20,056 bases of DNA from the IMG/VR virus record IMGVR_UViG_3300049629_000427, positions 1 to 20,056 of that record; one strand, given 5' to 3'. The stretch is from a virus. The notes beneath the pieces were generated by a model. The model was not told where the DNA came from. It made no database searches and was given only the letters and a program-made list of their open reading frames with translations. A program made the translations under genes and the position numbers. Shown one piece after another: positions 1,880 to 20,056 of this stretch. Each line of letters starts with the position of its first letter. Position 1 is the first letter of the stretch.

Positions 1880-3860
1880 GCGCCCGCAGACGCTGAAATG
1901 GGTGCCTGAGAACATTCGAATTCCGGCGGAGTTAGAGACTCCCGGCGCGTTCGACATGAACCTCTTCCCGCATGTGGAAGGAGTGTTACAGGCCGCAGAC
2001 GATCCCGACGTTCGTGAGATCTACCTGCGATGGTCGACTCGAAACGGTAAGACGTTGACCGCGTTGTCGATCGTCCTCGGGCTCGTCTCAGAGACTGGCA
2101 GGCCGGGGATGATCTGCTCGGTCGACGAAGAACGAGTCAACGACCTGATTGACTCCGAAGTCTGGCCGATGCTGGAAGCGTGCGAGAAGACTCGTGACCG
2201 GTTGCCGCCGACCTGGAAGAGGTCCGTCAAGCGTGGCGTGGTCATCGGCAAGGCACGCATTCGAAGGGCGTTTCAGAAGTCAAAGAGCAAGCTGGCCAGC
2301 TTCCCGGCGTGCTATGGGCTCGGCAACGAGGTTGGATTGTGGAGCGTTGCGGCGATCGGTCGCTTCCGGCATCGAGCGCGCTTGTTCCCGTTTCACTCAC
2401 TGCTCGTGTTTGAAGGTAAGCCAGAAGACAAGGGCTCTTGTGCCATCTCTCATTTGTGTGAGAAGGATTCCACACAGCGGCGTTTTCGTTACGTGCCTTG
2501 CCCTCATTGCGGCAAGTATCAGCGGTTGGAGTGGGGCGACAACAAGCCGGATTCTCCGGGCGTGAAGTGGGAGCAAGCTCCTGATGGAAGAGAAAATGCA
2601 GCAAAGCACGCGCGGGAAACGGCTCACTATCGATGCGTGAACGGCTGCCGAATCGAGAACCAACACCGAGCACAGATGATGAGGGCTGGTGTGTGGGTTC
2701 CTGAAGGCTGCCATGTCGCTGATGACGGAACAATTGCAGGTAAGCCCAATCAGCCTTCACGCTATGTGGCTTTTGATTCGTTGTCCGCGTTGTACTCCCT
2801 GGCCATCGACGGCTGGGGTCAGTTGGTTGCTGAGTGGTTCGACGCAAAGGGTAAGATCGAATCGATCAAGGAGTTCTTCACCGCGACTCTCGCTCAGGCG
2901 TGGGAAGTCAAAGAGCAACGCATCGAGCCGCATGAGATCGGCAAGCGACTTGCGAGCCACGAACCGCGCGCGACCGTTCCAGATTGGGGAGTTTTTCTTA
3001 CACAGTCTTTTGACGTCCAGACGGCTGGAGGAAATCTTACATTTCCTTGGATGACGTGTGCATGGGGCGGGCATCAGCGGGGGCACGTCGTCGACTATGG
3101 CGTTTGTCGAAGTCTCGATGACTTCAGAAACATGATCGCGATGCAGACGTTCGCGAAGTCGAATGGAATGAAACTGTCACCATCGTGGCGGTCGATCGAC
3201 TCGACGGACGGAAACGTGCAGGAAGAGGTGTTTGAGATCTGTCGTCAGTTTAAGCGGCTGCTGCCGAGACGTGGTGGATCCTATCCATTCGGAGAAGGAT
3301 TCAGGCTTTCGACGATCGGCGCTACATCGGAGAACTCTGCAAGAAGAGTTACACCGACAGACTGCATCGACATGGGCGGCGTGATAGATGGGCAGCCTGT
3401 TTTGATCACGGTCAACACCGAAAGAAGTCAGCAGTGGGTCAATCGACAGCTTGATGGATCGCTCGCAAAAGAAGCCCCGAATCGGCTGACGCTGTGTGCC
3501 GATGCTGCAATCGATGCTCTGCTGCATGAGCAACTCTGCAATGAGCATCGCGTCAAAGAGACCAACAAGAATGGCTATGAGTCTTTCAAGTGGAAGCGAA
3601 TCGACTTCACGAAGCCAAACGACTGGCGGGACGTTCTGCGTGACTGTTGGACTCTGGCGCAACTTGTTACGTGCGACGGCGCATGGTGGGCCAATGTGAC
3701 GGATATCAAGCCGGTCGATGAAACAGTTGCTACACAACAAACGCAGCAGCAGACTGCCATCAATCAGGCGGGCACGCAGTCACTGGCGGGGCTCTCAACG
3801 GGGTCTTCCGGGTTCGGTCTAAACTGGGAGCGTGGCGGGCGTCGTAAAGGTTGGACTTGA
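1809..3860 (+). CDS. terL: Terminase large subunit (lambda GpA family)
   Basis: A 683-residue packaging motor and nuclease. The start is set by AGAGG eight bases before ATG 1809. The N-terminal ATPase has a Walker A-like WSTRNGKT at about 76-82. The usual acidic Walker B (an Asp-Glu pair) appears as GNEVGLW at about 172-178, with Asn where Asp is expected. Family landmarks follow: a CPHCG zinc-knuckle half (231-235) and a YRCVNGC half about 40 residues later, then the characteristic 'RAQMMRAGVWV' segment. The C-terminal nuclease begins near LTQSFDVQTAGG, whose Asp matches the family's conserved DVQ, and continues with SIDSTDGN. The end contains DWRDVLRDCWTLAQL, the usual helical close of GpA proteins, then a Gln/Gly-rich tail. 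It cuts concatemers and pumps DNA into the prohead through the portal. Confidence 0.93.
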   Translation: MAGTATKRRRKLWSSVASAFRFAERPQTLKWVPENIRIPAELETPGAFDMNLFPHVEGVLQAADDPDVREIYLRWSTRNGKTLTALSIVLGLVSETGRPGMICSVDEERVNDLIDSEVWPMLEACEKTRDRLPPTWKRSVKRGVVIGKARIRRAFQKSKSKLASFPACYGLGNEVGLWSVAAIGRFRHRARLFPFHSLLVFEGKPEDKGSCAISHLCEKDSTQRRFRYVPCPHCGKYQRLEWGDNKPDSPGVKWEQAPDGRENAAKHARETAHYRCVNGCRIENQHRAQMMRAGVWVPEGCHVADDGTIAGKPNQPSRYVAFDSLSALYSLAIDGWGQLVAEWFDAKGKIESIKEFFTATLAQAWEVKEQRIEPHEIGKRLASHEPRATVPDWGVFLTQSFDVQTAGGNLTFPWMTCAWGGHQRGHVVDYGVCRSLDDFRNMIAMQTFAKSNGMKLSPSWRSIDSTDGNVQEEVFEICRQFKRLLPRRGGSYPFGEGFRLSTIGATSENSARRVTPTDCIDMGGVIDGQPVLITVNTERSQQWVNRQLDGSLAKEAPNRLTLCADAAIDALLHEQLCNEHRVKETNKNGYESFKWKRIDFTKPNDWRDVLRDCWTLAQLVTCDGAWWANVTDIKPVDETVATQQTQQQTAINQAGTQSLAGLSTGSSGFGLNWERGGRRKGWT

Positions 3861-3893: not shown

Positions 3894-4178
3894 ATGACGA
3901 CTCCCATCTTCGCCTACCGCAAATACATGCTTCAGCCAACGCTGGCACTGCGTAGGGAATGGTGCGCGAACTTTCTTGAGGAACTCGACGCGTTCATGAT
4001 CGGCCAGCGTGGCGTCGACGGATCGATGCAGTTCCCGACGAAAGAGCTACACGCAGAGGCAATCGCAGCGCTTGCTGAGTACGACCGCCAGTTCATGGCG
4101 TCTCCCGCTGGAGTTAGCGCTGACTCTGCTCCGATGTTTGCGCGCGTCGCGATGATCAATGGAAGGAGACTTCCATGA
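3894..4178 (+). CDS. Small head protein between terminase and portal, unknown
   Basis: A 94-residue protein from ATG 3894; an in-frame TTG at 3876 is the alternative, and neither has a strong ribosome-binding site. It is rich in helix-forming residues (about 12-34 and 45-62) and has no membrane segment or cysteine motif. It sits exactly where lambda encodes the head-tail joining protein gpW, but the sequence does not resemble gpW and is longer. Its stop overlaps the portal start (ATGA), so it is translated together with the portal. Function unknown; a head-completion role is possible from position only. Confidence 0.65.
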   Translation: MTTPIFAYRKYMLQPTLALRREWCANFLEELDAFMIGQRGVDGSMQFPTKELHAEAIAALAEYDRQFMASPAGVSADSAPMFARVAMINGRRLP

Positions 4179-5767
4179 GTCGCATTCAAGACACGTGGCT
4201 CGACCGCGCAATCAGATTCGTGAGCCCTGTAACTGCGCTCAATCGTCAAGTCGCAAGGCGTGCTCTTGCGTCTTACGACATGGCCGACAGGACCAGTCCA
4301 CTCAATCGCGAGCGGGACTTGCTTGGCGGTCCTGGTGATCGGCATTTGAAGCCGACCGTGTTATGGGATCTCCGCGAAACGTCTCGGTCGCTGATGCGAA
4401 CAGATGGACTCGCACGAGGTGTGATTGATCGCAGTGTTGAGAATGTCATCGGTCCCAGCGGATTCGACCTTAAACCGGCGACTCTCAATGAGGATCTCAA
4501 CAAGCAGATCTCAGAAGACTGGCTCGTCTGGCTGTCAACATGCGACGTGCGTCGTGAGGTCGATGGGTGGCAGTTGTTTCGCAGGGCCTACCGTGAACAG
4601 CTCATTGCCGGTGACAACTGGTGCGAGTTTGATCCAGATGACAACGACGGCGACGGCGGTTTGTTCTTCTTCGAAGGCGAACGTGTCGTCAATCCTGCTG
4701 CTCAACCGAGCGCCACAACCAACGGCGTGAAGTTCGATTCTCGTGGAAGAAAAATTGCAGTCTGGGTTTCGGACGTCCAGCCAAGCAGTCTGGCTACAGC
4801 GTCTTCGAAAGGCCGTTGGCACGAGGCTGACAAGCTCGTTCAGTGGTGGAATCCAGAGCGTTCATCTCAGTCTCGCGGTTGCCCTGTTTTCGCGTCTCTG
4901 ATTCGCGAATTCGACGACCTCGATGACCTGCTTCAGTACGAGATGATGGCCGCGAAATGGATGGCAGCGAACCCGGTTTGGATCGAGTCCGACAATCCGA
5001 TGGGGCTCGCCAAATCGATCAGCACGATTCTCGACGACAAAGGTAATCTTCAGGCTGACTTTCGGCCAGGTCCAAACATTGGTCCGAAGGGCTCGAAGCC
5101 TCACGCGCTGGCGCCTGCGCGTCCGTCAAACACGTTCAACGAATACGTGATGCTGATGTGCAGGATGGTCGGGTTGCCGCTCGGGCTGCCTCTGGAATTA
5201 GTGTTACTCGACTTCTCTCGGGTCAACTTTGCGTCGAGTCGACAGCTTCTGAATCAAGCACAGCGTCACTTCATGACCGAGCAGAATCAGTTTGCGTTCT
5301 CAGTGTCGAAAATCTATCGATGGTGGCTGCAAAGACGCATTCAACGCGGATTCTACGCTGAATACGCCCAGGAAATCGCGAGCGGTCGCATCTATGCACA
5401 CTCATGGGGAACGCCTCGATGGCCGTCTCCAAATCCGCTGCAAGACGCTCAAGCGGCTGAGATCGGAATTCTCAACGCGTTCGAATCGCGGACCAATCAC
5501 AACCGCAATCGTGATGTCGATCAGGCGGAAATCGCCGCAGAACTGGCTCGTGAGGCTGCTGCCGGTGCGACGACGTCTCAGGCTGGCCAGAGTAACAATT
5601 CCGACATCGCAGCAAGTCTAGTGAAGCTCGCGAAGAACGCAGAGCAGCGGGCACAAGAGGCCGAGTCTGGTGACGTGGACGTCGAAACGTGGAGTTCAAC
5701 AGCTCGCGACGAGATCGCAACGATCAAGGCTGTTGCTGCTGCAATCGGCGCATGGAGGACAGCATGA
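4175..5767 (+). CDS. Portal protein (lambda gpB family)
   Basis: A 530-residue protein, the usual length for lambda-type portals. GGAAGGAG lies seven bases before ATG 4175, which overlaps the upstream stop. Family signs run in order: the N-terminal YDMADRTSPLNR segment, the paired-helix stretch with LRETSRSLMRTDGLARGVIDRSVENVIGPSG (about 66-96), an acidic insertion with DPDDNDGDGG (about 152-161), and the late region LPLELVLLDFSRVNFASSRQLLNQA (about 338-362), typical of the portal crown/wing. The last 60 residues are Ala/Gln-rich and helical. Twelve copies would form the ring at the capsid vertex through which DNA is packaged and to which neck proteins attach. The protease gene follows with an ATGA overlap. 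Confidence 0.92.
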   Translation: MSRIQDTWLDRAIRFVSPVTALNRQVARRALASYDMADRTSPLNRERDLLGGPGDRHLKPTVLWDLRETSRSLMRTDGLARGVIDRSVENVIGPSGFDLKPATLNEDLNKQISEDWLVWLSTCDVRREVDGWQLFRRAYREQLIAGDNWCEFDPDDNDGDGGLFFFEGERVVNPAAQPSATTNGVKFDSRGRKIAVWVSDVQPSSLATASSKGRWHEADKLVQWWNPERSSQSRGCPVFASLIREFDDLDDLLQYEMMAAKWMAANPVWIESDNPMGLAKSISTILDDKGNLQADFRPGPNIGPKGSKPHALAPARPSNTFNEYVMLMCRMVGLPLGLPLELVLLDFSRVNFASSRQLLNQAQRHFMTEQNQFAFSVSKIYRWWLQRRIQRGFYAEYAQEIASGRIYAHSWGTPRWPSPNPLQDAQAAEIGILNAFESRTNHNRNRDVDQAEIAAELAREAAAGATTSQAGQSNNSDIAASLVKLAKNAEQRAQEAESGDVDVETWSSTARDEIATIKAVAAAIGAWRTA

Positions 5768-15077: not shown

Positions 15078-15718
15078 GTTCTCTTGATGCTGTCATCACT
15101 GGCGTTAAGTGGATTTCATCGGGGACGATCCAGGTTGATTTCGAGAGTCATCACTCGGATAGGTGGCACCAGATTTACTCCGGGCGGCGACTGATCGGCG
15201 TAACGAGCCAACAAGGAGAGCGCGCTGTCTCTGGAATGATTGTTCCATCGTCATCGCCCTCGCCGTTGCAGGTTGTGGCTGTTGATTCGGCGAATCGAAT
15301 GACTGATTACGGGCGACAGCTTCCGATTCGCCCATACAATCAATTCGAACTGAGTTGGTCTGCGGTCAGCATGGATGCAGACTGCGAGCGTTACGCTGTG
15401 TTTGTTCCTACAGAGTTCGGCGGAGAGCCTGACTCGCTGTTGCGTTGCGTGGAGTCTGTCGGGAATGGAAACTACACAACCGAAACGCCAGTCGTCGATC
15501 AGTCTGGCGATTGGACCTACTCAATTCAGCCGATCGACGACGCGGCTGGCGATGATCCGATCACTGAAGGAAACTACGGCACTGCATCGGAAGTTACAGT
15601 CAGGGCGAAGGTTTATCCGCCTGACTTCGCCTATGATGCGAGCGGTAGTCGTTTCGCGGCAAGTTCTGTTGATGGTCAACTGACGGTCTCTGTGGCCTAT
15701 GGCTGGAGTAGCTCCTAA
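15074..15718 (+). CDS. Tail protein with fibronectin/Ig-like features
   Basis: A 214-residue protein starting with GTG 15074, which overlaps the previous stop (GTGA), with GAGGAGG upstream. Strand-rich segments such as GTIQVDFESHHSDRWHQIYSGRRLIGVTS and NQFELSWSAVSMDADCERYAVFV, followed by TWTYSIQPIDDAAGDDP, resemble two tandem Ig/fibronectin type III-like beta sandwiches common in phage tail-tip and fibre proteins. It would sit at the tail tip and may bind host-surface polymers weakly. It overlaps the next gene by one base (TAATG). The FN3 call rests on strand pattern, not on a sharp motif. Confidence 0.55.
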   Translation: MSSLDAVITGVKWISSGTIQVDFESHHSDRWHQIYSGRRLIGVTSQQGERAVSGMIVPSSSPSPLQVVAVDSANRMTDYGRQLPIRPYNQFELSWSAVSMDADCERYAVFVPTEFGGEPDSLLRCVESVGNGNYTTETPVVDQSGDWTYSIQPIDDAAGDDPITEGNYGTASEVTVRAKVYPPDFAYDASGSRFAASSVDGQLTVSVAYGWSSS

Positions 15719-17931
15719 TGCCAGGTGTAGTCAGTATTCCACTTGAATCACTGAGTAACGTCAGCATCACGTCGACTCCATCGGACGGAGACACGTTGAC
15801 GTTTGTGGCCGCGTCTGGCACATACCAGATGAAGGCTGCAAAAGGCGGTTCCGGCGGAGTCACGATCGAGCAGGTTGATGACCACCTGGCTGAGGCGTTT
15901 GTGCCAGGTATCGGCATCGAGATCACCTATGACGACGACAATGGCACCTTCACCTTTGATCGCCTCGAAACGCTGACGGCACACGCTGACGCGTCGACTA
16001 TCACGTTCGATCTATCTGCCGGAGAGCACAAGGAAACTGTTCTTGGCGGCAACAGAACGCTCGCCGTCAGCAGTCCTGTCATCGGTCAGAAGTTTCGGGT
16101 GAAACTCACTCAGGATGCGACTGGCGGCAGAACTGTTACATGGTTCTCAGGCATCACGTGGGCTGATGGTTACGTTCCAGCTCTCACGACAGTTCCCGGT
16201 GATCACGACGTGTTCGAGTTCCTCGTGACGAACACTGGCAGCTACGGCAACGCGTTTTTGGGATGGGTTCTGACGGCACACAGGCCGAAGATCCTGACTG
16301 CAACTCTGACTCCAGATGCCAGCGCATCGATCGCAACCACAACTCAGGGAGGAGTTGCGTTGGTTGAGGTCTGGAAACTCGATGAGGCTGGAACGACAGA
16401 CGATCGTCAGGGATCTCTCGACGTGTCCGACTTCACGAGCTGCAACAACCCAACTCTGTCGGGCGCAGATGGGGCCGATATCACATGGGGCGGGCTCGTC
16501 AGTGTCATCGAAACTACACTGGTTTCCGGACTCGGGTTTACGGCAACCGCACCTCGTTCGATCAGCGGTTGGTTCAAAAGTCAGTCCGTTTCCAGTGGCG
16601 TTGTCATGGAGTGGGTTTGCGGTTCTCACAGCCTTCAAATTCTCAAGACCAACAACTCTGGAAGCACTCGATACCAGGCAAAAGCGACAACCTCAGCCGG
16701 TCCTCAAACAGTGAATTGGAGCTCGAATTCAACGGACAACGCTTGGCATTTCGTGGTTGCTCGCTGGGACGGAACGAACCTCGGATTGAGCGTCGATGGT
16801 GCGAATTTCGTTACAGCAGCACTTGGCGGAAACATGACGACCGGTGCAGCGAAAGTGTTGCTTGCATCTGGCGGAGAGGGCACTCTCGAAACAGATGAAG
16901 TCGCGCTGTGGTCAGAGGCGATGAGCAACTCGACGGCATCGTTTTTGTGGGCCAGTGGCGTTGGTGAGTTCTTTCCGTACTCAGGCACCAGCGAGGTTCA
17001 CACGCTGACTGTCACTGGAACTCCAACGTCAGGAACAATGGAACTGACGATTCTCGGCGAGTCCGTGACGCTCAACTACGACGACACGGCGGCAGAGGCC
17101 AAAACAGCAATCAATGCGGTTCTCGGTGTTGGATCTGTCGACGTGACTGGCGGGCCATTGCCTGGCACCGCGTTGGCGATTGAGTTCACTGGATCCTATG
17201 CGGGAATCAATGTTGCAAGTTCGAGCGTCGACGACTCCGGATTGGCGGGCGGAATCACGATCGATTGGTCGGCCTATGATGTCGCGAATCTTACAGTCGA
17301 TGGCAGTTCCGGAAATCACACAATCACGAACGCGAGCATCGTCGCTGGCAAACGGATTCACGTATCGATCGAAAACGACGGCGGAAGTGGAACAATCACG
17401 TGGGCTGGCGTTGATGTGGCGTGGGGCACGGCTGGGGCTCCCGACATGCCTGCGGACACAGAGACGATCGACCTGGAGTTGCTCGCAACGTCAGTAACGA
17501 GAATTGCAGGCTTTGTTGTCGGCGAAGCTGGTTCATCTGACGGCACAGGAAACACATTCGAAGCCGAAAACAAATCTGGCGCCACATTGGCTGTCGGTGC
17601 TGTGGTGGCGTCTCACTCGTCTGGGACAGGCACGATCAAAGCCATTGCTACGGCATACGGCACACTTGCGATTGGGCTCGCAAAAGCGTCTACGGCCAAC
17701 GGCGTGAGTGGTGTGGTTCAAACTACAGGGCCATTCACGATGTCTGACTGGACTTCAATCGCTGGTGCAACAGAACTCACAGCGCGGGCAAAGTATTACC
17801 TGAGCCCGACGACCGCTGGAACAATCACTACAACATGCCCGACAACGGGCGGGCATGTGATTCAATTGGTCGGGGTGGCAGTGTCGCCAACCACGCTCGA
17901 TCTCGATCCAGGCGACGGAATTCAGCTTTAG
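15718..17931 (+). CDS. Multidomain tail fibre/tip protein with LamG-like domain
   Basis: A 737-residue protein built from beta modules. Residues about 8-40 match the 'LxDVxIxxxxxGxxLxF' start common in phage fibres. A beta domain at about 91-185 contains QDATGGRTVTW and GITWADG. A laminin-G/concanavalin-like domain at about 213-415 includes VALVEVWKLDEAG, SISGWFKSQ, NAWHFVVARWDGTNLGLSVDG and DEVALWSEAMS. Residues about 425-510 (ELTILGESVTLNYDDTAAEAKTAINAVLGVGS...VTGGPLPGTALAIEFTG) match a small repeat domain common in phage structural proteins. A second copy of the first beta domain lies at about 523-602 (GSGTITWAGVDVAWG). Residues about 613-737 resemble the whole C-terminal domain of the next gene. 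LamG domains bind glycans, so this is a good receptor-binding candidate. No chaperone or peptidase motif is seen. Confidence 0.8.
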   Translation: MPGVVSIPLESLSNVSITSTPSDGDTLTFVAASGTYQMKAAKGGSGGVTIEQVDDHLAEAFVPGIGIEITYDDDNGTFTFDRLETLTAHADASTITFDLSAGEHKETVLGGNRTLAVSSPVIGQKFRVKLTQDATGGRTVTWFSGITWADGYVPALTTVPGDHDVFEFLVTNTGSYGNAFLGWVLTAHRPKILTATLTPDASASIATTTQGGVALVEVWKLDEAGTTDDRQGSLDVSDFTSCNNPTLSGADGADITWGGLVSVIETTLVSGLGFTATAPRSISGWFKSQSVSSGVVMEWVCGSHSLQILKTNNSGSTRYQAKATTSAGPQTVNWSSNSTDNAWHFVVARWDGTNLGLSVDGANFVTAALGGNMTTGAAKVLLASGGEGTLETDEVALWSEAMSNSTASFLWASGVGEFFPYSGTSEVHTLTVTGTPTSGTMELTILGESVTLNYDDTAAEAKTAINAVLGVGSVDVTGGPLPGTALAIEFTGSYAGINVASSSVDDSGLAGGITIDWSAYDVANLTVDGSSGNHTITNASIVAGKRIHVSIENDGGSGTITWAGVDVAWGTAGAPDMPADTETIDLELLATSVTRIAGFVVGEAGSSDGTGNTFEAENKSGATLAVGAVVASHSSGTGTIKAIATAYGTLAIGLAKASTANGVSGVVQTTGPFTMSDWTSIAGATELTARAKYYLSPTTAGTITTTCPTTGGHVIQLVGVAVSPTTLDLDPGDGIQL

Positions 17932-17940
17932 GAACAATCG

Positions 17941-18417
17941 ATGGCTTCACGAAAACCTCTAGTTCTGGACGGCAGCGGCAATATTCAGCAGCTTCAATCC
18001 GGTGACACGCTCAATGCTCCGGTCTCGGAAAACAACGTCATCAGCAAGACTGCTGCCGCAACGTTGATCGCTGGAAACGCTGTCTATGCCAGCTCGGCGA
18101 CTGAGGTGAACAAGGCGCGCGCAAACGCCAGCGGGACAATCAATGTGGTCGGATTTGCGACTGCTGCAATCTCCTCATCGGCAAGCGGGTCGATTCAGAC
18201 GTCTGGCGTGCTCGTGCTCACCACTGGTGAATGGGACGCATTGGCGGGGACCACAGGCGGTTTAACTGCCAATACACGGTATTTTCTTTCGGCGGCGACA
18301 GCCGGACTTATCACGTCAACCGCGCCGTCAACCACTGGTCAATACGTTCGCCCATTGCTGCTCGGCCTTAGCACGACAGAGGCATTGATTGTCGATGCCG
18401 AGGCGATTTTACTGTAA
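17941..18417 (+). CDS. Small tail fibre protein, paralogous to the preceding C-terminus
   Basis: A 158-residue protein with AGGA seven bases before ATG 17941. The start (RKPLVLDGSGNIQQLQSGDTL, about 4-24) matches the 'RKPLVxxxGxxxQLxxGDTL' opening common in phage tail proteins. Residues about 31-158 align with residues 613-737 of the preceding protein, sharing W-x-x-(I/L)AG-T, LTA-x-x-(K/R)Y(Y/F)LS-x-x-TAG, and PxTTG before the final strands. The copy stands alone here, so it may be a fibre cap or adaptor that interacts with its paralogue. Its own receptor role is unknown. Confidence 0.7.
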   Translation: MASRKPLVLDGSGNIQQLQSGDTLNAPVSENNVISKTAAATLIAGNAVYASSATEVNKARANASGTINVVGFATAAISSSASGSIQTSGVLVLTTGEWDALAGTTGGLTANTRYFLSAATAGLITSTAPSTTGQYVRPLLLGLSTTEALIVDAEAILL

Positions 18418-18429
18418 TCGGACGCAACT

Positions 18430-19812
18430 ATGGCCTCGGGAATTCTTAGCCTCATCAGCGGTCAAATCCAGCACCTCGGGAATCTGCTTCTCGAAGTGTC
18501 TGGGCTGACTGCCGCGCGCACCGCGACGATGCCGGACATGTCGGGCGTCATCAGCCTGCAAGGCAAAGGCACTGATATTGCCAGCGCCACGACGACCGAC
18601 ATTGGCGCGGCAACAGGCGATTTTCTTGACATCACTGGCACGACGACGATCACTGGGCTCGGGACGATCGACGCGGGCATTGAGCGGACGGTGCGGTTCA
18701 CTGGCATCCTCACGCTCACCCATAACGCGACCAGCCTGATACTGCCGGGCGGCGCGAACATCACAACTGCTGCCAATGACCGCGCGATATTTCGGTCGCT
18801 CGGGTCTGGTAACTGGCTTTGCGTGACTTATCAAAAGGCGAGCGGCGCGGCTGTCGTTTCTAGTGGCGGTGGGCTGACGAACTGGTCCGAATCGGCTGGC
18901 ACCTACTCCAGCAAGGATTGGAAGCGGTTTTTTCCGGTCAGCGGCACGAACGTGAACGTCGTGTTTTCTCCACTGGGCACCGGGTCGATACAGGCGCAAG
19001 TTGCAGACGGGACGAGCGCGGGCGGAAATCAGCGCGGCTCGAACGCGGTTGACTGGCAGACTAAGAGAAGTTCCGCCAGTAACGTTGCGTCCGGCCAGGA
19101 ATCGTTTGTCGGCGGCGGATACAACAACCGCGCCGCCAGTCAAAGAGCTACAGTTGGTGGCGGCAATGCAAATATTGCTGGCTCAACCTGTGACGCTGTA
19201 TGCGGCGGAAGAGGCAACGACGCGAGCGGCACTTATGGCTTCATTGGCGGCGGCATCTTAAACACAGCATCGACATGTGCCGCAGTCGGCGGCGGAGAGC
19301 GAAACACAGCAACTGGTACTTATTCGTGGATACCTGGCGGTCTGCGTGGAACTACGCGAGGCATTCGAGGAATGGGCGCCTTTGCGTCAGGCAGATTTTC
19401 CGCTACAGGTGACGCTCAATGCGGATGGTACGTGCTCAGATCGCTAACGACAGGCGCAACAGCCACGGTATTGACAGCGAATGCTGAAGTGGCCGGTACA
19501 GATAATCAAGTGATATTGCCAAACAACAGCCAATACACATTTAAGGCATTGATCAGTTCACATCGAACCGACACGGTTTCTGGATGGACGCATCGAGCGT
19601 CGTGGACCGTTGAGGGTGCCGTTGCCCGTGATGCGAACGCGGCGTCGACAATCGTCACGGCGGTAATCAACACCATCACCAACACTCCAGGATGGACGCT
19701 CACAGTGACAGCGGACACGACCAACGGCGGAATTGCGTTCACGTTCACTGGCGAGGCATCAAAGACAATTCGCACGGTGGCTATCGTGGAGACAGGTGAG
19801 GTGACGTCATGA
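18430..19812 (+). CDS. Tail fibre with YadA-head-like repeat array
   Basis: A 460-residue protein. The N-terminal half (about 50-140) contains the domain TTTITGLGTIDAGIERTVRFTGILTLTHNATSLILPGGANI...GNW.CVTYQ, widespread in phage tail proteins and probably an attachment module. Residues about 226-304 form five to six 14-15-residue repeats of the (V/I)GGG-x-x-N-x-A type, as in trimeric YadA-head beta-rolls, with Cys at 254, 258 and 283. A C-terminal module follows: RFSATGDAQCGWYVLRSLTTGATATVL (about 322-348), typical of fibre tips, then a beta-sandwich tail. Trimeric fibres with such beta-rolls usually recognise host surface glycans or proteins. Its stop overlaps the sulfotransferase start (ATGA). 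GC of 18481-18840 by hand count is about 61%, versus about 56% for 17041-17400, hinting at separate origin of the N-terminal part. Confidence 0.75.
   Translation: MASGILSLISGQIQHLGNLLLEVSGLTAARTATMPDMSGVISLQGKGTDIASATTTDIGAATGDFLDITGTTTITGLGTIDAGIERTVRFTGILTLTHNATSLILPGGANITTAANDRAIFRSLGSGNWLCVTYQKASGAAVVSSGGGLTNWSESAGTYSSKDWKRFFPVSGTNVNVVFSPLGTGSIQAQVADGTSAGGNQRGSNAVDWQTKRSSASNVASGQESFVGGGYNNRAASQRATVGGGNANIAGSTCDAVCGGRGNDASGTYGFIGGGILNTASTCAAVGGGERNTATGTYSWIPGGLRGTTRGIRGMGAFASGRFSATGDAQCGWYVLRSLTTGATATVLTANAEVAGTDNQVILPNNSQYTFKALISSHRTDTVSGWTHRASWTVEGAVARDANAASTIVTAVINTITNTPGWTLTVTADTTNGGIAFTFTGEASKTIRTVAIVETGEVTS
19105..19341 (+). repeat. Tandem 14-15-residue beta-roll repeats in the fibre gene
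   Basis: Within the 460-residue fibre, hydrophobic-Gly-Gly-Gly motifs recur at residues 227, 242, 257 (GCG variant with Cys258), 272, 286 and 301, giving a 15-residue (occasionally 14) period. Each unit carries an Asn and an Ala/Ser-Ser turn, as in YadA-type heads. The repeats are degenerate at DNA level (about 42-45 bp each), so they are old protein repeats rather than recent duplications. Confidence 0.7.
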
Positions 19813-20056
19813 AGCTGTTTTTCATGGCCGGTATGCCTCGAAGCGGAAGCACACTGCTGGCCAACCTGCTAGCGCAGAATCCCGCGAATCACGTCACGCC
19901 AACAAACGGCCTAATCGAGCACGTCGTGCAATACGCCAACTCTTGGACTAGTTCAGAGGGGTTTGTCGCGCAGGGTGTTGAAAACGTCACGCCACGAATC
20001 CGCCGATCGCTGCGGGGCATGATTCAGGGTTTCTATCCGGAACTCGATGCGGGCCG
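19809..20056 (+). CDS. Sulfotransferase, N-terminal part (runs off the window)
   Basis: The first 82 codons are visible. ATG 19809 overlaps the fibre stop (ATGA), with GGTGAGG about eight bases upstream, so it is translated with the fibre. The N-terminus reads MKLFFMAGMPRSGSTLLANLL: a beta strand followed by the PRSGSTLL loop (residues 10-17), which is the 5'-phosphosulfate (PAPS) binding loop of sulfotransferases; the Ser/Arg pattern separates it from a kinase P-loop. The QNP...HVTPTNGL segment that follows is typical of bacterial and phage sulfotransferase-family proteins. The family moves a sulfo group from PAPS to an alcohol, amine or sugar. The 3'-phosphate binding motif and the acceptor site lie beyond the window. 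The substrate cannot be told; a host or virion glycan is one possibility. Confidence 0.85.
   Translation, partial: MKLFFMAGMPRSGSTLLANLLAQNPANHVTPTNGLIEHVVQYANSWTSSEGFVAQGVENVTPRIRRSLRGMIQGFYPELDAG

Follow-up and report, generated by a model that had tools for sequence, protein, structure and literature searches.

What does a sulfotransferase (ST) gene do directly behind a tail fiber gene of a phage? The question is raised by a linear virus fragment of 20,056 bases, which constitutes the entire record IMGVR_UViG_3300049629_000427 and ends inside the ST gene; it was analyzed at its full length and is referred to here as the window. Our best explanation is that the gene encodes a soluble PAPS-dependent ST that forms part of the host-recognition, or fiber, module. 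According to its open reading frames (ORFs) and to Pfam and PHROG matches, the window contains a gpA-type terminase, a lambda-family portal, a head protein, a probable tape measure, and fibers, and it reads as the packaging-to-tail portion of a lambda-like tailed phage. The portal gene (positions 4175 to 5767) had no close relative in the scanned viral contigs, and its matches in phage records reached only ~25 to 27%, which suggests that the phage comes from a poorly sampled lineage. No close kin of this phage came up when viral contigs were scanned with the fiber, the portal, or the ST fragment by itself, and a search of phage records with the 82-residue ST fragment as the query returned no match.

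The sulfotransferase gene and its fiber neighbors

The ST gene is represented by its 5' part, 82 codons on the plus strand from position 19809 to the contig end at 20056. The translated fragment matches the Sulfotransfer_3 family (PF13469) with an E value of 4e-8 and 34.2 bits, above the Pfam cutoff of 27, and phrog_27463 with an E value of 3.8e-10; relatives are 49 to 56% identical over this region. The 5'-phosphosulfate-binding loop region corresponds to codons 8 to 18 (GMPRSGSTLLA; 19830 to 19862, plus strand), with PRSGSTLL at ST residues 10 to 17, and residues G8, P10 to T15, and L17 are invariant in alignment A7. The x-PRSG-S/T-T loop of the PF13469 family is thus present at window residues 8 to 17. 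Since the Pfam score lies above the cutoff and the PHROG match agrees, the loop is not a chance occurrence. A previous sequence-only reading had identified the protein as an ST with a PAPS loop ten residues from an ATG that overlaps the fiber stop; the family matches and the visible loop confirm the former, and the latter is correct to the base.

The last complete gene of the window (18430 to 19812, plus strand), directly upstream of the ST, encodes a 460-residue tail fiber with YadA-head-like repeats and follows probable tape-measure and minor tail ORFs. It matches the annotated tail fiber of cyanophage Cy-LDV1 at 37.9% over 60%. Its residues 199 to 459 match the fiber upstream of an ST in another viral locus, L318, at 38%, and its N-terminal domain matches an upstream fiber in the ST locus of Methylocucumis oryzae (L001) at 49%. 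The homology to Cy-LDV1 and L318 and the location within the tail module agree with the initial description of this gene as fiber-like. On the same strand, it is preceded by a small Ser/Thr/Gly-rich fiber-region protein (17941 to 18417), recognized as an ORF and by its composition only, and by a large fiber with a laminin-G/ConA-like lectin domain (15718 to 17931; PF13385, E value of 5e-7; tail-fiber phrog_9017, E value of 5e-7). In Cy-LDV1, a different gene lies behind the fiber homologue, which has no adjoining ST. The ST is therefore an accessory to the fiber, and the two phages offer a natural comparison of a fiber with and without it.

Fiber and ST genes overlap in an ATGA junction on the plus strand (19809 to 19812), formed by the ST start codon (19809 to 19811) and the fiber stop codon TGA (19810 to 19812). 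A Shine-Dalgarno-like sequence, GAGGTGAC, precedes the ST start within the C-terminal codons of the fiber (19798 to 19805, plus strand), and the same sequence is found directly ahead of the ST start in the fiber gene of L318. The ATGA junction had been considered a signal of coordinated production, a notion that we rejected, since such junctions are routine in this genome. Four-base overlaps are also present at 4175/4178 (ATGA), 14703/14706 (ATGA), and 15074/15077 (GTGA), a further junction at 15718 has a 1-base overlap, and in other loci some fiber and ST genes overlap while others are separated by tens of bases. Taken alone, the 4-base overlap is weak evidence, and it is the recurrence across phages that has to carry the argument. 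The evidence for the link is the repeated adjacency of the ST to fibers of unrelated folds.

Recurrence of the pair in phages and bacteria

When viral contigs were scanned with strict motifs and with profiles, hundreds of relatives were obtained. In L318, the most telling of them, the homologous fiber is connected via a GTGA overlap to an ST that starts with GTG; this ST is full length (286 residues), shares 56% with the window ST over 81 residues, and contains the Arg-x7-Ser motif. Seven nearer viral relatives of the window ST for which the context was read (L317 to L322 and L336) have a fiber-like gene no more than two genes from the ST. In L320, L321, L322, and L336, an ST of the window subtype is located behind a fiber, with subthreshold YadA_head matches in three of the four. 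The pair is also found with other fiber types, across many unrelated phages. In M. oryzae, an RCC1-repeat fiber forms an ATGA junction with the ST start; the portal match in M. oryzae is weak, and L001 is hence a parallel for the fiber-ST arrangement and not evidence of the same phage type. In L036 to L042, the ST is joined by GTGA to Gly-rich adhesins, and further loci pair it with kelch, BNR-like, and S74 fibers. In the isolates S-SRM01 and S-SKS1, the gene upstream of the ST, annotated as hypothetical, encodes an RCC1 or kelch-repeat protein. Recurrence in related phages had been proposed as the test of the fiber-ST pair, and L318 and L001 are among the relatives in which we found it.

Adjacency was quantified in 165 loci from viral records, containing 169 STs that form 43 clusters at 70% identity. 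By a crude criterion of composition and repeats, and not of homology, a fiber-like gene was present at position -1 in 19 of the 43 clusters and no more than four genes away in 37, as opposed to a rate of ~0.14 at positions +1 to +4 of the same loci. For a thymidylate synthase control (80 loci fetched), the corresponding values were 0/55 at -1 and 0/35 within four genes, zeros that are indicative only because the control is a single narrow clade. Pfam analysis of 37 of the -1 proteins agreed with these composition-based counts, as it detected RCC1 in six, Gly_rich_2 in four, Peptidase_S74, an endosialidase-type intramolecular chaperone, in two, and kelch in others. A typing of fibers by regular expressions for use with the ST tree missed RCC1 fibers that Pfam detected, and the resulting counts per fiber type were not used.

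These counts bear on the possibility that the ST is cargo, an auxiliary metabolic gene for small molecules or lipids, and that fiber loci are insertion hot spots in which the pairing has no meaning. Phage STs are indeed listed as auxiliary metabolic genes with an unclear role (PMC10580990, PMC8290583, PMC10829341), their function being stated as unclear in PMC10580990. Accessory genes gather in fiber regions, and the ST of L355 adjoins a packaging or portal-like region, not a fiber. However, fiber-like genes at -1 are in excess over both the downstream positions and the control, tight junctions recur with fibers of unrelated folds, and bacterial adhesins are partners as well. We consider the cargo explanation improbable.

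The Sulfotransfer_3 proteins of S-SKS1, S-SRM01, S-SCSM1, and OM43 phages are related to the family described here, with 25 to 31% full-length identity to the ST of L007, but were published as auxiliary metabolic genes, and a fiber link is absent from the papers that we found. Phage STs as such are thus already known; for the fiber link, for the fusion of the ST to TPR and GT9 regions described below, and for sulfated phages, the open-access literature yielded no description. The "PAPS sulfotransferase" of CSP3 is actually a CysH-family reductase.

Bacterial homologues extend the association to surface proteins of cells. Five ST homologues of Methylomonadaceae (L307, L308, L309, L315, and L316) are located directly before the gene of a giant adhesin, which has 3,013 to 3,587 residues in the three complete long versions and 1,150 in L315, and is cut in L309. 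The N terminus of these adhesins reads 'ALEPRILFDGAA', and the one scanned with Pfam contains DUF4347, PATR, and Big_9. Where the sequence extends far enough (L307, L308, L315, and L316), an outer-membrane efflux-type (OEP) gene follows, and the locus is possibly a bacterial adhesin-sulfation operon. In L310, the ST adjoins a C39 ABC transporter of type I secretion and HlyD, and in L311, it adjoins an FG-GAP protein. No adhesin adjoins the STs of L312 and L313, the bacterial sequences grouped nearest to the window fragment in a tree in which the latter was placed by 82 residues on a long branch. A known bacterial system of this kind is RaxST, which with its exporter sulfates a tyrosine of a secreted peptide (PMC6637879). 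Xanthomonas RaxST with RaxX/RaxAB resembles the bacterial relatives in that an ST is tied to a secreted protein and an exporter, but RaxX is a small peptide, whereas the partners found here are fibers or giant adhesins.

Motifs, fold, and fused forms of the enzyme family

The alignment of 30 relatives revealed an invariant G-x-PRSG-x-T loop, an Asp, Arg-x7-Ser, a Tyr, and a late His, together with a Lys that is nearly always conserved; a second alignment of 19 relatives showed the same invariant pattern. The 3'-phosphate motif Arg-x7-Ser corresponds to R117/S125 in alignment A4 and to R111/S119 in A5, and is invariant in both. The sequence-only reading had asked for this part of the PAPS site in the complete protein; the 82 codons of the window end before it, and in the full-length relatives, on which the check was made, it is kept.

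Predicted models of relatives have a sulfotransferase fold. The model of the L039 ST (221 residues, pLDDT of 92) matched best the protein-tyrosine sulfotransferase TPST1 (Z score of 17.4, 209 aligned residues, rmsd of 3.1), followed by polyketide-pathway STs (15.4) and then saccharide 3-O-STs (12.5), and the ST part of the L083 model matched TPST with a Z score of 18.4. TPST1 was also detected by sequence, with 1.2e-13 for profile A4 and 1.2e-7 for the single L039 sequence. TPST1/TPST2 (PDB 5wrj and 3ap1) are the best sequence and fold match of the family, in which the 5' loop, the equivalent of Lys158, and Arg-x7-Ser are kept. The family differs from them in that the phage proteins are short and mostly without an anchor, most lacking any transmembrane-like stretch, and in that the position of the TPST catalytic residue, Glu99 in the numbering of 3ap1, is occupied by Thr or Ser in most members and by Thr in the window. 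Since this Glu, a defining feature of TPST, is not kept, we did not classify the ST as a TPST, although TPST is its nearest match.

The fibers likewise lack the acidic-tyrosine sign of tyrosine sulfation. Tyrosine was not enriched in ST-paired fibers compared with other fibers of the same loci (3.95 versus 3.68 per 100 residues), and tyrosine in an acidic context was less frequent in the former (0.071 versus 0.122 per 100 residues); the window fiber contains 7 Tyr, none of them in an acidic context. Together, the loss of the Glu and the missing tyrosine enrichment speak against tyrosine sulfation being simply copied here.

About 10 relatives with 586 to 605 residues, mostly encoded behind RCC1 fibers, form a clade, including L083, L106, and L001, in which the chain continues past the ST with a TPR-like stretch, behind which lies a GT9 domain. 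In the L083 model (overall pLDDT of 77), residues 1 to 255 are TPST-like, residues 259 to 331 resemble the TPR region of AspH, and residues ~333 to 586, a less confident part, match WaaC (Z score of 13.7) and TibC (Z score of 11.3). The GT9 heptosyltransferases WaaC/WaaF and TibC, the last of which glycosylates an autotransporter adhesin, hence share the fold of the C-terminal part of these relatives, which also occur beside adhesins, but in the relatives this part is fused behind an ST and a TPR region. The fusion is as expected for an enzyme that would add a sugar and then a sulfate on that sugar. The nearest relatives of the window ST (L317 to L320) are ST-only, and the fused form is consequently not assumed for the window gene. 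The M. oryzae gene (c207; L001:3401-5163) is of the ST-TPR-GT9 type, is located behind its RCC1 fiber, and has a frameshift near 3560.

This frameshift and the mere 82 codons visible in the window are what would speak for a decayed remnant, or for a noncatalytic family that acts as a fiber-assembly factor. The visible part nevertheless has all invariant loop residues, full-length relatives hold the PAPS motifs across deep divergence, and the frameshift in M. oryzae could stem from an error in the draft assembly; a remnant or noncatalytic protein is accordingly very improbable.

Candidate acceptors and neighboring genes

Genetic linkage of the ST to a fiber is not proof of its substrate. From the enzyme family, the fold of relatives, the kept motifs, and the recurrent linkage, we infer an enzyme that is expressed late and places sulfate on the adhesin of the phage itself or on a glycan carried by that adhesin, a proposal to which we give an even chance of being correct. 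Most likely, the ST would be made late in the cytoplasm together with the fibers and would transfer sulfate from host PAPS to a polypeptide residue of the adhesin or to an attached sugar, before the fiber is assembled into the virion; the additional negative charge may then alter receptor binding or stability. Being mostly hydrophilic and encoded beside late genes, the enzyme could reach the fiber prior to assembly, or a cytoplasmic glycan precursor. In phages and some bacteria alike, a common partner of the ST is a surface-binding protein, so that both cases are most simply accounted for if the adhesin itself, or a sugar attached to it, receives the sulfate. The nearest fold and the bacterial adhesins lean toward the adhesin as the substrate. 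Arguments for a glycan acceptor come from the GT9 fusion and, in some loci, from genes for a CTP-transferase and PfkB.

Some STs are located among glycosyltransferase and sugar-nucleotide genes, an arrangement that would fit the editing of host glycans as well. The ST would then sulfate a host surface polysaccharide, lipopolysaccharide (LPS), or a cytoplasmic lipid-linked precursor, so that the receptor is masked against superinfection or progeny are freed from debris, and it would be located beside the fiber since both act on the same receptor. Sugar-modifying neighbors (GT25 and CTP-transferase genes in some loci, a glycosyltransferase and an epimerase in S-SRM01) point in this direction, as do the LPS heptosyltransferases WaaC/WaaF as nearest folds of the GT9 domain, and a receptor-matched pair would be expected to travel with the fiber. 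An early exclusion factor is, however, unlikely to be encoded directly behind late fiber genes, and many ST and fiber loci have no recognizable adjoining glycosyltransferase. In addition, protein-tyrosine STs are the nearest solved folds, with saccharide STs further down, and several bacterial STs pair with secreted adhesins. We therefore regard action on host glycans as rather unlikely, although less so than the cargo explanation.

If the adhesin is the acceptor, the STs may represent a dedicated adhesin-modifying class in tailed phages and some bacteria, in which receptor-binding proteins are sulfated before assembly or export and, in one clade, also glycosylated by the same ST-TPR-GT9 enzyme; this generalization is tentative, and we would sooner doubt than assert it. 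If true, (i) adhesin sulfation would be a layer of host-range control that is invisible in the gene sequence alone, (ii) host-range prediction from sequence only would overlook a modification step, and (iii) phages and bacteria would possess a counterpart of eukaryotic protein sulfation. The tie of the ST to receptor-binding proteins of several folds and to bacterial adhesins makes it testable whether fibers are sulfated and whether host range is set thereby.

A number of additional observations concern the neighborhood of the STs. Tandem ST genes, some with a 4-base overlap, are present in L076, L091, L093, and L098 and suggest two different acceptors. A protein of 74 to 76 residues ('FAKVENGIVTDV...YAGIGD') is repeatedly encoded behind the ST (L007:11404-11634, L039:6659-6883, and L016:3883-4110), and the one member scanned had no Pfam match. 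APS-kinase-like proteins are encoded near STs in four loci (L053:7660-8454, L083:11270-12100, L108:8162-8917, and L326:9465-9887); as suppliers of PAPS they were dropped, since the matches in these four tested loci are partial and are followed in three by a cytidylyltransferase-like part. Genes for 2OG-Fe(II) oxygenases and DUF6445 proteins are located beside fiber and ST genes (L034:729-7169, L035:4072-4761, L069:4798-5439, and L173:4397-5008); in L034, a CTP-transferase gene and a PfkB gene are present as well and resemble a split HldE. In S-SRM01, a gene of the tryptophan halogenase family (L194:41680-43137; PF04820, E value of 8e-84) lies between tail-fiber-region and adhesin tip genes and possibly encodes another fiber-modifying enzyme.
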